This document shows positions 13,304 through 30,124 of a stretch of 59,955 bases of DNA, piece after piece (the first letter of the stretch is position 1; each line of letters opens with the position of its first letter). Under the pieces are notes generated by a model. It did not search any database. It was not told the DNA's origin and saw only the letters and a list, made by a program, of their open reading frames with translations. A program made the position numbers and the translations under genes. The stretch is from a virus, in IMG/VR virus record IMGVR_UViG_3300047409_000695, positions 1-59,955 of that record; one strand, written 5' to 3'.

Positions 13304-13944
13304 CAGTCGCGGAACCTGCGACCGTCAGAACCGCGCGAGTCGTCGCGATTCGATCGATCGTTCGAGTAGACCTCGACGAAGATCCCGCCTTCATAGGCCC
13401 GTGGCCGAGGCCGTTCGTAGTTCTGAGCTTGGGCTGCCTGCATGATCGCGATGCCGCGCTCGGACATCTTAACGGATTTCATCCGTCCGGTCCGCCGACC
13501 CTTCTCGTCCACTTCGGGAATCTGAAACGAGTTCCGCAAGCCGTGCGTGATCTCGGACCGACGACGCTTTTCCGCCATCTCTCGCATCTCGAGCCGACGT
13601 TCTACCTTGCGCGCGATCTCCGAGGCCTCGCGGGTGTTGACGTCCCGCTCGAACTTTCGGACTTCGGCGAACCCGCGGAGCTCCACACGCTGATAGCCCA
13701 GACGCTCGTAGTTGTCGACCGACCGGCCGCTCGTGGCGCCAGGGAACCGATACGATCCGTCCGGCGCCTTGAAGACGACGACGGCCGCGGCTGACGACCG
13801 GGACGAGATCAGCGAGTACTCCCGAATCGTTTCTGTGCCGCACTTCGGACACGGCGGCAGGACGTCCGACTGAGACATCGCCCGCATGTCGTTGAAGATG
13901 GCCTCGCACTCGGCGTTCGTGCACTTCTGCCCGTAAATCGGCAT
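13303..13944 (-). CDS. zinc-ribbon protein, FmdB-like N-terminus (213 aa)
   Basis: The start ATG at 13944 overlaps the terminase stop (TGATG). The first 40 residues are a zinc ribbon with Cys8, Cys13, Cys32 and Cys35 in the FmdB-type order (MPIYGQKC...CPKCG). A long charged helical region follows at about residues 90-150 (KVERRLEMREMAEKRRR), then an Arg/Asn/Asp-rich tail. Zinc ribbons between terminase and portal occur in some phages, but their role is unclear. It may help packaging or head assembly. Confidence 0.7.
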   Translation of the reverse strand: MPIYGQKCTNAECEAIFNDMRAMSQSDVLPPCPKCGTETIREYSLISSRSSAAAVVVFKAPDGSYRFPGATSGRSVDNYERLGYQRVELRGFAEVRKFERDVNTREASEIARKVERRLEMREMAEKRRRSEITHGLRNSFQIPEVDEKGRRTGRMKSVKMSERGIAIMQAAQAQNYERPRPRAYEGGIFVEVYSNDRSNRDDSRGSDGRRFRD

Positions 13945-16166
13945 CACTGTCTCCCGTACGGCCGACGGAGCGGCCCCAGCGTCGCTTTCCCTCGCGGCGT
14001 GCGCTCTACTTGCAGCGCCAGCGCGTTCCCCGTGTCGACCGCCTGTAGGCCGGGCGACCACGTTGCGTAGTGGCCAACGCCCTGCAGCATGTGCGCCGTG
14101 TCCTCGCGGGCTTCCGGCATGTACTGCGGCAGGTTCCGCCGATAGCTCGTGCTCCGACGTGCGTCCGGGGGGTCGAGACTGAAGATGATAAACCCCAGCG
14201 CCATCACGCGGTCGTCTTTCGTGTTGTACGCGGCGCGCGCCGACACTTCTTCGGGATCGCGCTCGAGCGTCGCGAGCTCGCCGACCAGCCAGTAAGACCC
14301 GATGTCGAGGCACTCTTCGTCGATCAGCGTCAGGAACTTGTCCATCATCATCGAACGGAACCAGACGTTCGTGAACACTCCGAATTTGTGCACCTTGCCG
14401 TCGGGAATCTGCCGCTTGTTGTCGTACTTTTTCCACGGATGGAAATTCGTCCAGCCGCGGGACTGCATCTGTGACTGGACGATCTCGCCGTTGCCCTTGC
14501 ACTCGACGGCGACTCGGCACTGCGTCCGTCGACCGACCTTCGGGTTGAACACCGAATAGAAGCACGCTAGCGCCAGGGCCATCGGCCACAACTGATCGGC
14601 CTTCACGTACGGGCTCGCGAACTCGGCGCACTGCCCGAACGGTCGATCGGCTGAGAACTTTCGCGCGACCTCGAGTACCGACCAGTCCTCGCCGATGCCG
14701 TCCGACGTGTCGACGCCGAGGCCGTACGTTTCCCCGTCTTCTGGGAACTCGTAGATGAACAGCTTGAACATCGGGTCGTAGCCGGCGTAGCCGTCGAATT
14801 TCAGTGGGATGAACTGATAGACCTCAGTCGATCGGATGACGCCGGCGACGCGGACCGTGATGATCGGCGGGGCGTCCGGGCCGATCCACCACTGATTCTG
14901 GGGCGGAATCAGCGACCGATGAATCCCGGAGCCGATGATCGCATACACCCCGAGCGGTGGTCGGACCTGCTCCCGGTAGTTCAGGATCACGTCCTGATCG
15001 ACGACCGAGACCCCGGTGTTCTGGAAGGCTTCCTGATCGTCCGCCGGCATCTCGGCCAGGAACTTGTTCAGGGTCTTCTTCCGGATCGCCATGTCGCGCT
15101 CGAGCTCGTAGAACCACATCTGCTCCCGGGGCATCTGCCAATCGCGGTCGCCTTTCGCCAAGTGTTTCAGCAACGAAGGACGCGAGAGCACGTAAGCCCT
15201 CGCACGTTCGGCATGGTGAATCGTCCGGTCGCTGGGCACCCAGTCGCGCGGAATCGGCCGGGCGCGCAGGTCGGTCGGCGTCGGGTAGATGTCGATGCCC
15301 ACAAACCACGGCAAAAACTCGCCGCGGAGCCTCGATCGTCCTCGAGGCCATTCCGTCTTGACGATCTCCCAGGAGTCCGCCCACCAGTTGTCGCGGCCGA
15401 GCGCCGTCGACTCGAGCGACACGAAGACGTCCGGCGTTTCGTGGACGGCGCGAATGAATGACGAGTCGATGTCCTCTTCCGCGTTGTCCCATGACGAGAC
15501 CTCCGACAACTGGCCGACGTTCGGCGTGGCGCCTCGAGCGACCCCATGGAACTGGTTGCCGGCCTGAATCGACAACCGGGTGTTGATGGCGCCGAACTCG
15601 ACGATCATGTTCTTCTCGAACTTGTCCTTCGCCGAGCTCGGGAGCAACCACCACGGTTGTTCCTCGAGACAGAACTTGATCATCTGGCCCATCTCGACGG
15701 TCTTCTTCGGGTCGGCGGACGCCACGATCGCGTTGGTGCGCTGCCAGAACTGGAATCGGTGCGTGACGGCCATCTGATTGACCGTCGTGATCCCTAACTG
15801 CCGGGCCTTCAACTGCTGCAGCATGATGGCCAGGGCGAGCTCTTCGTGCTCGGCCCAGATATCCATCACGATCGACTGGGCGACGTTCGGCCGAAACGGC
15901 ACCACGTTCTTTTCCCAGTCGATGATGCGGGCGTAGTTCGAGGACCAGTACCGGAAATCGAGCGCACAGATCTTCCGCTCGTTCCGGATGAACTGCACTT
16001 CCTTTTCGTCCAGCCGGCGGATCAGCCGGCCGGTCTCTTTGTCGCGCAGGTCTTCGAAGTGCGAGATCGCGTCTTCGATTTGGCTTTCGGAGTGGTACTG
16101 CAGTTGCCAACCGACCTCGCGGCTGGCTTCCTCGATCATCTGGGCCGTGACGATCGGGCTATACAT
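13944..16166 (-). CDS. terL: terminase large subunit
   Basis: This 740-aa protein has the two-domain build of large terminases. An ATPase occupies the first ~430 residues, with a variant Walker A 'KARQLGITT' (residues 120-128) and 'SADPKKTVEMGQ' after it. An RNase H-like nuclease domain starts near residue 490 with 'LGVDTSDGIGEDWS' carrying the expected acidic residues, and a late 'KDDRVMALG' supplies a further Asp. It packages DNA into proheads through the portal. It overlaps the candidate small subunit upstream by 8 nt. Confidence 0.93.
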   Translation of the reverse strand: MYSPIVTAQMIEEASREVGWQLQYHSESQIEDAISHFEDLRDKETGRLIRRLDEKEVQFIRNERKICALDFRYWSSNYARIIDWEKNVVPFRPNVAQSIVMDIWAEHEELALAIMLQQLKARQLGITTVNQMAVTHRFQFWQRTNAIVASADPKKTVEMGQMIKFCLEEQPWWLLPSSAKDKFEKNMIVEFGAINTRLSIQAGNQFHGVARGATPNVGQLSEVSSWDNAEEDIDSSFIRAVHETPDVFVSLESTALGRDNWWADSWEIVKTEWPRGRSRLRGEFLPWFVGIDIYPTPTDLRARPIPRDWVPSDRTIHHAERARAYVLSRPSLLKHLAKGDRDWQMPREQMWFYELERDMAIRKKTLNKFLAEMPADDQEAFQNTGVSVVDQDVILNYREQVRPPLGVYAIIGSGIHRSLIPPQNQWWIGPDAPPIITVRVAGVIRSTEVYQFIPLKFDGYAGYDPMFKLFIYEFPEDGETYGLGVDTSDGIGEDWSVLEVARKFSADRPFGQCAEFASPYVKADQLWPMALALACFYSVFNPKVGRRTQCRVAVECKGNGEIVQSQMQSRGWTNFHPWKKYDNKRQIPDGKVHKFGVFTNVWFRSMMMDKFLTLIDEECLDIGSYWLVGELATLERDPEEVSARAAYNTKDDRVMALGFIIFSLDPPDARRSTSYRRNLPQYMPEAREDTAHMLQGVGHYATWSPGLQAVDTGNALALQVERTPRGKATLGPLRRPYGRQ

Positions 16167-20258: not shown

Positions 20259-20538
20259 CGAGGTCTCGCATGAACGCGTGAATTTCGGCGAGCGCCGACA
20301 GCGGGTAAACGGACTCGCCGTACTCGCCGGCCGCGCGGAACATCCACGCCCGCCACTGCGGCGACCACTCAATCCGCCCCATCGCGAACGCGCCGCGTCT
20401 CGAGATCACGGCGTACGACGTTTGGTGGGCGATGATCGGTCCGTCGATGAACCGCAGATAGCGCCCTTCGCGACGCGTCGGCGGAACGTGCCCGACCGGT
20501 CGACGACGGATCCATGCGATCAAAGCCTTTGGCGTCAT
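20242..20538 (-). CDS. small basic alpha/beta protein (98 aa)
   Basis: The ATG at 20538 overlaps the stop of the upstream frame (TGATG). The product has a Lys/Arg-rich start, then short strands (YAVISRRGAFAMGRIEWSPQ) and a C-terminal helix. No motif is recognised. It is part of the tightly coupled accessory operon. Confidence 0.55.
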   Translation of the reverse strand: MTPKALIAWIRRRPVGHVPPTRREGRYLRFIDGPIIAHQTSYAVISRRGAFAMGRIEWSPQWRAWMFRAAGEYGESVYPLSALAEIHAFMRDLGGRQV

Positions 20539-21092
20539 CAGAACCCCAGATCCGGATCGACGCCGGTATCGACGCCTTTGACTACGACTGGCCGTTCAGC
20601 GCGATCGACGCGTTCGCCGTCATCACGCACTCCCGGAGCTTCCGGAGCGCTGCCGTCTGGTCCGCGCTCGGCGGTGTGTGCTCGAGCAGGATCTTGGCGA
20701 AGTCCTTCGCCGCCGTTCGAATCGCTTCGTACGACTGGGGCTGATCCCCCGTGGGCGGGTGATACGTGAACAGATTCTCGAGTCGCTCGGTCTCGGCCTG
20801 GCTCAGCACTCTGATCATTCGGCCCTCCTATGGGCTCGTACGTGAGTTCTCGGACGACGCGTTCGACGGGCGGCGTCACCACGATCGGAATTTCTCCGGT
20901 TGCAAGGACCGCGCGTTCGCCGGCGTCGTCGAGGTTGAGGTACGCCATGATCGCCTGGTCGACGACCCACGAACACGGCTTGTTCTGCTTCTTCGCGCAC
21001 GCCTTAACGGCCGGCCAGAACCGTTTCGCCACGCGGACGTTCACGTCTCCGGTCCGATCGACCGGCGCACTCTTCTTCCGGACCCGCTTCAT
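20538..21092 (-). CDS. ribbon-helix-helix-like protein with long tail overlapping the Acb2-like gene (184 aa)
   Basis: The start ATG at 21092 overlaps the upstream stop (ATGA). Residues 14-52 (VNVRVAKRFWPAVKACAKK, then SWVVDQAIMAYL) resemble an Arc/CopG-type ribbon-helix-helix fold. From about residue 92 the frame runs through the whole Acb2-like gene in another register with low-complexity sequence and stops at the next gene's ATG. Either the tail is translated or the true product is shorter. A regulator role is plausible. Confidence 0.5.
   Translation of the reverse strand: MKRVRKKSAPVDRTGDVNVRVAKRFWPAVKACAKKQNKPCSWVVDQAIMAYLNLDDAGERAVLATGEIPIVVTPPVERVVRELTYEPIGGPNDQSAEPGRDRATRESVHVSPAHGGSAPVVRSDSNGGEGLRQDPARAHTAERGPDGSAPEAPGVRDDGERVDRAERPVVVKGVDTGVDPDLGF
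20582..20818 (-). CDS. acb2-like: Acb2-like anti-CBASS protein (cyclic nucleotide sponge), 78 aa
   Basis: The start at 20818 has a strong AGGAGG ribosome site 6 nt upstream. The protein carries the hallmarks of the Acb2/Vs.4 family: 'FTYHPPTGDQPQSYEAIR' (residues 17-34), a helix 'FAKILLEHTPPSADQTAALRKL' (shown here in part) and the C-terminal signature 'CVMTANASIALNG' (residues 64-76). Acb2 proteins form hexamers that bind CBASS cyclic oligonucleotides, blocking effector activation. Length is typical (family about 65-95 aa). The gene lies wholly inside a longer frame in another register. Family membership is from motif recall, not a search. Confidence 0.8.
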   Translation of the reverse strand: MIRVLSQAETERLENLFTYHPPTGDQPQSYEAIRTAAKDFAKILLEHTPPSADQTAALRKLRECVMTANASIALNGQS

Positions 21093-21520
21093 GAGTTCAG
21101 TGCTCCGAGAATGTCTTCGAGGTCCGACGTGACCAACTCGGCCATCTTGACCATCAGATCTGGTTCGCGCAGACCGGGCACGTAGACGAACAGCCGCTTG
21201 CCAGCGCCACACGCGTAGCCCGCCTCGAGGCTCGCCGACACACCGCACGGCATGACGTACACGCAGATCTCCGCGGCCTTCAGCGCGTCCATGTCGAATT
21301 TGAAACCGCGTTCGGCTGTCGGATGCTGCAGCCCCTCGAGGTACTTCGGGATATCGTCCGGCCAGGATTGCCAGTCCGGATGGACCTCTCGCCAGCTAAA
21401 ACCGTGCTGGCCCGGTGCCGGGTTCCTGAAGTCGTACACCTCGTGTCCGTCTTGACGCAGGCGCTCGACGACCATCGGTTGAAACTCGTTCCTCCATGAA
21501 CTCGCCACGTAAATCTTCAC
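21089..21520 (-). CDS. nucleoside 2-deoxyribosyltransferase-like protein (143 aa)
   Basis: A GTG start at 21520 overlaps the upstream stop (GTGA) and follows AAGGAG. The product begins KIYVASSWRN, a typical first strand of this fold. It has 'DMDALKAAEICVYVMPCGVS' in the middle and 'ASLEAGYACGAGKRLFVYVP' with the expected catalytic Glu (residue 99). Family members cleave N-glycosidic bonds of nucleosides or nucleotides. The same fold is shared with TIR-type NADases and SLOG proteins. Next to an Acb2-like gene it may act in anti-defence or nucleotide metabolism. Confidence 0.7.
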   Translation of the reverse strand: MKIYVASSWRNEFQPMVVERLRQDGHEVYDFRNPAPGQHGFSWREVHPDWQSWPDDIPKYLEGLQHPTAERGFKFDMDALKAAEICVYVMPCGVSASLEAGYACGAGKRLFVYVPGLREPDLMVKMAELVTSDLEDILGALNS

Positions 21521-23863: not shown

Positions 23864-23918
23864 ACCCCGGCACACCGGCCGATCCGTGCGTGGCTATTCG
23901 GCCACACCGCACACCGGC

Positions 23919-24166
23919 CGAGCCGAGCTCGAGGCCTCGAGCCCCGAGCCGAGCCCCCCAGGCCTCGAGGCCGGCAAGCACGCGCGATCTTTGGCTACGG
24001 TGCGGTCCGACGTGCGGTCGGTCGGTCTCGAGGCCTGACGCGTCGACGGTGCGGTGTGCGAGCTCGAGGCCTCGAGGCCGGCCGCGTCGACGGTCCGACG
24101 TGCGGTCGTTCGAGCTCGAGGCCGGCCGCGGTTCGAGCTCGAGGCCTCGAGGCCGGCCGCGGTCGT
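23919..24166. repeat. cluster of GAGCTCGAGGCC / CTCGAGGCCGGCC palindromic repeats
   Basis: Within about 250 bp, CTCGAG occurs nine times, mostly as GAGCTCGAGGCC or GCCTCGAGGCCGGC. The stretch GGTCCGACGTGCGGTCG also occurs twice (about 24004 and 24092). The spacing is irregular, so it is not a CRISPR array. The units are overlapping self-complementary blocks that could form cruciform DNA or bind a dimeric protein. Similar blocks occur inside genes at 27.35 kb. Confidence 0.75.
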
Positions 24167-24171
24167 TGCGC

Positions 24172-24211
24172 GTGTTCCGATTTGTCATCTCGCGACACGA
24201 AAACGGAACAC
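24172..24211. promoter_or_regulatory. 40-bp operator-like inverted element, copy A
   Basis: The 40-bp element starts GTGTTCCGATTTGTC and ends CGAAAACGGAACAC, so its ends are inverted copies of GTGTTCCG. It matches 34 of 40 positions with a second copy at 26925-26964. There is no T-run after it, which argues against a terminator. It lies upstream of the rightward operon and fits an operator for one of the phage's small DNA-binding proteins. Confidence 0.6.
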
Positions 24212-24337
24212 GGCCGCGGCGAGCCGGCGCCACGCCTGCCCGCGGTTGCACACCGCGGCGCACGACGACACCGCGGCACGGCCTCTGCTCTGTATGTGGC
24301 CATGGCGACGACGACACGGCATAGCGGGGATTGTCGG

Positions 24338-26921: not shown

Positions 26922-26924
26922 TCC

Positions 26925-26964
26925 GTGTTCCGTTTTGTCAAAACGGGACACCAAAACGGAACAC
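26925..26964. promoter_or_regulatory. 40-bp operator-like inverted element, copy B
   Basis: GTGTTCCGTTTTG at 26925-26937 is the exact reverse complement of CAAAACGGAACAC at 26952-26964. A third, related GTGTCCCGTTTTG half-site lies between them on the minus strand. It shares 34 of 40 bases with 24172-24211. It sits in a 121-bp gap between genes and is followed by GGCGTGCACCGGCGTGCAG repeats. It could repress or terminate within the rightward operon. Confidence 0.65.
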
Positions 26965-27042
26965 AACCGAGCTCGAGGCCTGGTACCGGCGTGCACCGGC
27001 GTGCAGTTGTGAGCCGGCACACCGAATGCAATTACCTCGAGC

Positions 27043-28154: not shown

Positions 28155-30124
28155 CGTCTTCCGCTACGTATTCGCCTGATGACAACAAATTGCGGTTGTA
28201 CGCCAGTCAGCGCTTAGACGCCGAGGACTACGCCCGCGTCAAGGCTGCCGGCTTCAAATGGGCGCCACAACAAAAGATCTTCGTGGCTCCGATGTGGACT
28301 CCGGACCGCGCCGATCTTTTGCTCGAGCTCGCCGGTGAGATCGGCGACGAAGATACAAGCCTGTTAGACCGCGCCGAGGAACGGGCCGATCGTTTCGGCG
28401 ACTACAGCCAAAGCCGAAAGGCCGACGCGGTGTCAGCCGAAAACGCCGTTGATCGGATTGCTGGCGGTATTCCGTTCGGGCAACCGATCCTAGTCGGCCA
28501 TCATTCCGAACGGCACGCCAGGCGCGACGCCGAGAAGATCGAAAACGGTACCCGCCGAGCGATCAAGATGTGGGAAACCGCGAAGTACTGGCAGGACCGA
28601 GCGGCCGGCGCCATTCGGCACGCCAAGTACAAAGAGCGGCCGGACGTTCGGCACCGTCGGATCAAGGGTATCGAGGCCGATCGGCGGAAGTCTGACAAGT
28701 ACGTGACTGAGGCCCGCGGTTGGATCAAGGCCTGGGCTCAGTTGAATCACCCGTACAAAGACGGCCGGCCGGCTGACGATGACCTGCGGCAAAAGCGCGC
28801 GGAGTACATCGCGAACTATTCCCACATACATCTAGCGGCCGGCCCTGATCGACCGTTCGGCGACTCGCTATGGTCGGCCCTGGACAAGCGCACGATCACG
28901 CCTCGAGCGGCCATGCTGATCGCGCTGAAGTGTCACGGCCGGACGATCAAAGCGAACCGCCGATGGCTCGAGCACTACGACAACCGGTTAGCGTACGAAC
29001 GCGCGATGCTCGCCGAGGCCGGCGGACTGGTGACCGACCGAACCGCGTACCCGATCGTTCCTGGCGGACGCGTCCTTATCCGCGGTCAATGGCTGATGGT
29101 TTACAAAGTGAACCGCTCGAACGGCGCGATCTCGAGCGTCACAACGCAGCCGACGAAAGACGGCGGATACAGTCGGCGAGCCATCTGGCAGATCGAAAAC
29201 ATCAAGGACTATCAGCCGCCGACCGACGCGGCCGACATCAAGACGGCGAAGGCCTCGACGAAGCAACCGCCGATCGTGAATTACCCGGGCGACGGCTTCC
29301 GACCGATGACCGCGGCCGAGTTCAAGGATGCACAGAAATTCCAGTCGACCGGCTACACCGTGATCAAGGCGACCGCGACGCACGCCGCACACCGGCAGCG
29401 CTACCGAATCCGCGGCGGCGAGTACATCTACCTGTTCATTACCGACGCCAAGGTCGTAGAGCGGCCGTTACTGGACGACACACCGACACCGCCCGATCCG
29501 CCTAAACGGGTCTACGCCGAGACTCCCGAGCCGGCGCCGCGGCCGTACGTGCCAGCACCCGAGACCACTCGAGCCGAAGAGCTCCGGAACAGCATCAAGG
29601 GGGGCGTGCAAGTGGTCTCGGCCCCGCAACTGTTCCCGACGCCGGCGCCAGTCGCTGAGAAGATGGCCGAGCTCGCCGACCTGCAAGACGGCTTGTGCGT
29701 GCTCGAGCCGTCGGCCGGCACGGGCAACCTCGTTGCCGCAGTCCTCGATCGGGTCGATACCGAGGTACTCGCGTACGAGATCAATTCCGAGCTCTGCAAA
29801 CAGCTTGCGAAGAAGTGGCCATCGTTCAAGCTGCAGGTTCGGCGAGCCGATTTCCTCGAGGTCACGGATTACCAAGGGTGTTACCCGCGGATCCTGATGA
29901 ATCCGCCCTTTGTGAACGGGTCCGACATCAAGCACATACAGCACGCGCGTACGTTCCTGGCGCCTGGCGGTGTGCTGGTCTCGGTCTGCGCGGACGGACC
30001 GCGCCAGCGTGAACAACTGATGCCCGAGGCCGAGGCCTGGATCCCGTTGCCGGCCGGCTCATTCGCCGACCAGGGCACCAACGTCAACACCGCGATCGTG
30101 ATCTTCACACGTCCAAAGGAGTAG
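28151..30124 (+). CDS. DUF3560-type protein fused to a class I SAM-dependent methyltransferase (657 aa)
   Basis: The N-terminal ~200 residues match the DUF3560 pattern: 'SQRLDAEDYARVKAAGFKWA', 'APMWTPDRADLL', then 'GHHSERHARRDAEKI'. A middle region with short strands follows. The C-terminal ~170 residues are a methyltransferase with motif I 'LEPSAGTGNL' (about 517-526) and 'MNPPF' (about 582-586), the amino-methyltransferase signature for adenine-N6 or cytosine-N4. It is the largest early gene. It could modify phage DNA against restriction, though the target is unknown. Confidence 0.8.
   Translation: MTSSATYSPDDNKLRLYASQRLDAEDYARVKAAGFKWAPQQKIFVAPMWTPDRADLLLELAGEIGDEDTSLLDRAEERADRFGDYSQSRKADAVSAENAVDRIAGGIPFGQPILVGHHSERHARRDAEKIENGTRRAIKMWETAKYWQDRAAGAIRHAKYKERPDVRHRRIKGIEADRRKSDKYVTEARGWIKAWAQLNHPYKDGRPADDDLRQKRAEYIANYSHIHLAAGPDRPFGDSLWSALDKRTITPRAAMLIALKCHGRTIKANRRWLEHYDNRLAYERAMLAEAGGLVTDRTAYPIVPGGRVLIRGQWLMVYKVNRSNGAISSVTTQPTKDGGYSRRAIWQIENIKDYQPPTDAADIKTAKASTKQPPIVNYPGDGFRPMTAAEFKDAQKFQSTGYTVIKATATHAAHRQRYRIRGGEYIYLFITDAKVVERPLLDDTPTPPDPPKRVYAETPEPAPRPYVPAPETTRAEELRNSIKGGVQVVSAPQLFPTPAPVAEKMAELADLQDGLCVLEPSAGTGNLVAAVLDRVDTEVLAYEINSELCKQLAKKWPSFKLQVRRADFLEVTDYQGCYPRILMNPPFVNGSDIKHIQHARTFLAPGGVLVSVCADGPRQREQLMPEAEAWIPLPAGSFADQGTNVNTAIVIFTRPKE

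Follow-up and report, generated by a model that had tools for sequence, protein, structure and literature searches.

An Acb2-type, hairpin-only member of the Acb2/Tad1 family in a phage genome keeps part of the known cyclic-nucleotide pocket

The window analyzed here is a full virus record of 59,955 bases. Its minus strand carries, at positions 20582 to 20818, a complete open reading frame (ORF) for a 78-amino-acid protein, MIRVLSQAETERLENLFTYHPPTGDQPQSYEAIRTAAKDFAKILLEHTPPSADQTAALRKLRECVMTANASIALNGQS*, which includes both of the sequence blocks (FTYHPP and VMTANASIA) that a preliminary description of this DNA had quoted. That description gave no strand, and reading the same interval on the plus strand yields an unrelated translation. 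The features considered are the following:

20582–20818, minus strand: acb2-family gene for the 78-amino-acid hairpin-only protein, with ATG at 20818 and the end of the stop codon at 20582 (translation, PF24729, AlphaFold, GC3)
20600–20767, minus strand: Acb2/Tad1 hairpin domain (Pfam six-frame match and alignment of 68 distinct sequences)
20824–20829, minus strand: ribosome-binding site AGGAGG, 5 nt before the acb2 ATG (minus-strand sequence ...AGGAGGGCCGAATG)
20538–21092, minus strand: 184-amino-acid ORF overlapping acb2, open out of frame through all of acb2, with its stop at the start of the next gene (TGATG)
13944–16166, minus strand: terminase large subunit, located 4.4 kb downstream of acb2 (phrog_5989; 30% identical to its Tunturi_1 counterpart)

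The start region of acb2 reads AGGAGG-GCCGA-ATG, bearing out the strong ribosome site described earlier. GC contents at codon positions 1, 2 and 3 are 0.61, 0.46 and 0.87 in acb2 and 0.60, 0.42 and 0.85 in the contig's terminase gene, a similarity that indicates that the acb2 frame is coding. Translation, GC3 signature and homologues confirm the ORF as real and as more than a chance frame. The contrary reading, that acb2 is the chance frame and the 184-amino-acid ORF the real gene, draws on the longer frame being open through all of acb2 and stopping where the next gene begins. However, near position 20820 the GC3 phase shifts from the 184-amino-acid ORF to acb2, which is also the frame in which the Pfam match and homologues are found, and 36% of the synonymously reshuffled acb2 sequences still leave the longer frame open. 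We consider this reading already refuted and give it virtually no credence. A gene overprinted on acb2 was likewise rejected based on the phase and reshuffling tests. We take the read-through over acb2 to be the result of chance or of a small lesion, possibly a frameshift, in the gene upstream.

The 78-amino-acid protein belongs to the Acb2/Tad1 family. Pfam-A returns a single match, PF24729 (Acb2_Tad1_hairpin; 54.5 bits, E 1.4e-14, cut-off 27), aligning residues 18–73 with profile positions 1–57, and the same match is found in a six-frame search. T4 Vs.4 (Acb2; sequence from NC_000866) scores 71.4 bits against this model with residues 7–83 covering profile positions 1–58, and the shared profile fixes a register in which Y19 corresponds to T4 Y8 and A73 to T4 F82. 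PHROGs assigns the protein to phrog_1454 (E 2e-18), which carries the function label unknown, and neither NCBIfam nor PADLOC contains a model for it. AlphaFold, supplied with 67 aligned sequences, predicts helices at residues 7–16, 26–47 and 52–73 and no strands (pLDDT 92.6, pTM 0.70). In the published Acb2 protomer, a short helix is combined with two long antiparallel ones, and there is no beta domain (PMC12043709, PMC10419184). As the predicted helices match this arrangement, the confident monomer model has the Acb2 protomer topology. Foldseek, proposed earlier as a check, lists Acb2/Tad1 hairpin proteins as its ten best matches among viral models, at probability 1.00 and with query TM-scores of 0.70–0.89, although only two of them pass E ≤ 0.001. 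In the PDB, the search, run without a positive control, yielded nothing at or below that threshold; its best 50 listed matches include no Acb2, and Tad1 (7UAW) is present at E 5.2. The structural support is thus indirect. We do not count the missing PDB match as a refutation, given that the query is a 78-residue helical hairpin and that the sequence-profile evidence does not depend on this search. Overall, the curated Pfam model, the match of T4 Vs.4 to that model, the AlphaFold topology and the Acb2/Tad1 structural neighbours support the Acb2-like identity originally suggested, and the protein is a hairpin-only, Acb2-type member of the family. Tad1 (PDB 7UAW, 8KBE) shares the C-terminal hairpin, including a recognisably similar second helix, but precedes it with an N-terminal antiparallel beta-sheet. 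A Tad1 identity was rejected because the AlphaFold model lacks a beta domain and only 17 residues lie ahead of the hairpin domain. Such an assignment is a routine observation in that Pfam and UniProt already label these proteins, and a comparable annotation in the actinobacteriophage Statler was published as a genome announcement (PMC13348362).

Solved sponges are reached from this protein through intermediate sequences. A phmmer search of the PDB with the 78-amino-acid protein and a search with its direct family profile (A2) produced chance hits only and found no sponge, and aligning A2 with the T4 sequence alone by hhalign gave no significant score. We therefore rely on a bridging alignment (A3) that includes sequences from phages Jenst, Halcyone, GiJojo, Racecar, 1706, prophi91-3, Myrna, RHph_N2_6 and T4. 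The match of the resulting profile to T4 is circular, as T4 Vs.4 is itself part of the alignment; the next PDB matches are Acb2 homolog 43 (9ptq, E 1e-4), Tad1 (E 0.02) and P26/Acb2 (E 0.05). A Mycobacterium prophage relative used as the lone query also finds 9ptq (E 2e-4) and Tad1 (E 0.025). Acb2 homolog 43 (PDB 9PTQ, 76 amino acids) is of the same length class but belongs to another sub-branch without the FTYHPP and VMTANASIA blocks. T4 Vs.4 (PDB 7UQ2) shares PF24729 and is of broadly similar size (88 compared to 78 amino acids), but is only 28% identical in A3 and has a longer inter-helix region. Similarity to Acb2/P26 of Pseudomonas phages (PDB 8H2J, 8IXZ) is detectable via the bridging profile only.

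Relatives of the protein form a sub-branch found in a range of phages. Among viral contigs, 82 candidate stretches encoding a relative were identified, 80 of which were kept, with identities of up to 72%. A tblastn search matched 117 phage records, mostly from Paenibacillus, Mycobacterium and Gordonia phages, and the matches listed are annotated as hypothetical, apart from some in Paenibacillus and Brevibacillus phages that are named 'phosphomannomutase'. Two Acb2/Tad1 hairpin relatives from Brevibacillus and Paenibacillus phages (L085 589–795 and L092 301–516) carry the name 'putative phosphomannomutase' in their database records, apparently an annotation error that has spread from record to record. 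The closest cultured-phage relative is the hypothetical protein XJP11592 of Tunturiibacter phage Tunturi_1 (64% identical). At the nucleotide level, megablast of the first 25 kb of the record against phages gave no match. In genome contigs, the MTANASIA pattern was confirmed in only three, namely a Calditrichia MAG, Acidicapsa dinghuensis and an Acidobacteria MAG. An alignment of 68 distinct sequences shows conservation of F17-T-Y-H-x-P, R34 and a C-terminal helix of the form A57...R59..R62...MTANASIA, with F17 and H20 each present in 67 of the 68 sequences and N69, I72 and A73 in all of them. H20, R59, R62, N69 and S71 constitute the near-invariant residues specific to this sub-branch. The two blocks had been called diagnostic of the family. 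They are indeed conserved within their own sub-branch, but they are absent from the T4 and Pseudomonas-phage proteins, whose counterparts read GYKPHT / MWACRAVF (T4) and GYRDLS / MMAIIRAIA (P26). They thus characterise this sub-branch and are not diagnostic of Acb2 in general. Conservation across the 67 aligned sequences from widely different phages indicates a preserved function; our literature search found no functional study of the sub-branch.

Comparison with the known Acb2 pocket shows a mixture of retained and replaced residues. In T4 Vs.4, cGAMP is contacted by Y8, H11, K23 and R79, with Y8 and F82 providing stacking interactions, while L29, A66, A73 and A77 are hexamer residues (Jenson et al., PMC10097602). 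The Y8A exchange lowers cGAMP binding more than 5-fold (PMC10097602) and abolishes the effect of Acb2 on Panoptes (PMC12657218, PMC12657230). In the alignment, the pocket columns Y8, H11, K23, R79 and F82 are occupied here by Y19, P22, R34, A70 and A73, and in P26 by Y11, L14, K26, R85 and A88, the P26 contact numbering being derived from the T4 paper and the alignment. Checking for conserved binding residues in this way recovers the tyrosine and the basic residue, while the equivalents of H11, R79 and F82 are replaced. Y19 is kept in 62 and R34 in 64 of the 68 sequences, at a spacing identical to that of both characterised Acb2 proteins (Y-x14-K/R). Even these two proven proteins differ from each other at the H11 and F82 positions, P26 lacking both residues and carrying alanine at the F82 position like the protein described here. 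The arginine common to T4 Acb2 (R79), P26 (R85) and Tad1, in contrast, is alanine in 65 of the 68 sub-branch sequences, including A70 here. We treat the loss of H11, R79 and F82 as a difference in specificity and not as a family-defining feature. At the interface columns, T4 L29, A66, A73 and A77 correspond to F40, A57, C64 and A68, so that small residues occupy the same three positions as in T4. Our reading is that oligomerisation and part of the pocket are probably kept, and the pattern of replacements suggests that ligand preference may differ from that of the characterised sponges.

The acb2 gene lies within a minus-strand gene series leading to terL and the portal, major capsid and tail genes. 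The terminase (30% identity), portal (28%), capsid (28.5%) and a tail protein (36%) match those of the Acidobacteriota phage Tunturi_1 in the same order. XJP11592, the Tunturi_1 acb2 homologue, is also located just upstream of terL (ca. 1.7 kb on the circular map), and the order acb2-terL-portal recurs in two further viral contigs (L005 and L035). The resemblance to Tunturi_1 in structural genes and acb2 placement makes an Acidobacteriota host likely. Close upstream of acb2, a nucleoside deoxyribosyltransferase-like gene is encoded at 21089–21520 on the minus strand (phrog_12607, E 2e-50). A sparsely coding stretch separates the minus- and plus-strand gene blocks and contains two copies (24171–24216 and 26924–26969, 83% alike) of an operator-like 46-nt element with GTGTTCCG...CGGAACAC inverted ends. 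Degenerate direct repeats clustered around CTCGAGGCC, with spacings of 44, 44 and 31, are present at 23900–24165 in the same stretch. A plus-strand gene at 28196–30124 encodes a protein that has DUF3560 in its N-terminal part and, towards the C-terminus, a methyltransferase-like region resembling PADLOC mad2 (E 1e-20).

CBASS-type immunity in the host group had been predicted from the presence of acb2. In 200 genomes from the order of Acidicapsa (Acidobacteriota), a SMODS (CD-NTase) match above cut-off is present in 18 and an Acb2/Tad1 hairpin match in four, with both matches co-occurring in a single genome (G190). SMODS was not found in the three genomes carrying chromosomal homologues. Use of CBASS by the host group, itself assigned by inference, and CBASS as the target of the protein are plausible but unproven.

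The protein is probably a hairpin-only sponge of the Acb2/Tad1 family that would form a hexamer, bind cyclic oligonucleotides and keep CBASS-type effectors inactive. Cyclic-nucleotide sponging is likely in view of family, predicted fold and retained residues. Produced during infection, the three-helix protomers would assemble into a hexamer whose inter-protomer pockets would take up cyclic oligonucleotide second messengers and leave them intact, so that host effectors, whether of CBASS or of another cyclic-nucleotide defence related to it, would stay inactive. A special case of this explanation, and thus not exclusive of it, is a sponge whose rebuilt pocket would serve a different signal from the cGAMP-type ligands bound by T4 Acb2, such as a Thoeris gcADPR isomer or another cyclic oligonucleotide. 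The near-uniform alanine in the T4 R79 column and the branch-specific set H20, R59, R62, N69 and S71 point in this direction, as does Tad1, which shares the hairpin and binds both gcADPR and cyclic nucleotides (PMC12043709). The retention of Y19 and R34 at the Acb2 spacing and the absence of a Tad1-type N-terminal beta domain argue against it, and we regard it as possible but on the unlikely side.

Helical hairpins of this small size lend themselves to reuse, and the protein could serve a non-immune purpose, for example as a small structural or regulatory oligomer, and not be a sponge at all. The partial loss of the pocket, the unknown function of the PHROG and the occurrence of some homologues within longer open frames are consistent with such reuse. 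However, pocket and interface positions are strongly conserved across different phages and the family includes several solved sponges, making this alternative improbable. Sponging of a cyclic nucleotide is the function we favour.

With this analysis, the range of known sponges comes to include a large sub-branch carried by environmental phages, and the pocket residues that the sub-branch retains can be told apart from those it has exchanged. Panoptes systems detect Acb2 activity, which represents a cost of Acb2 (PMC12657218, PMC12657230); acb2-type genes may therefore face selection from two sides. More speculatively, and with a low likelihood in our estimation, the FTYH...MTANASIA sub-branch, common in environmental phages, might have rebuilt its pocket for a signal that no characterised Acb2 or Tad1 prefers, which would suggest that Acidobacteriota or other bacteria use a defence signal not yet described. 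If the ligand does differ, the sub-branch would offer a handle on defence signals in Acidobacteriota.
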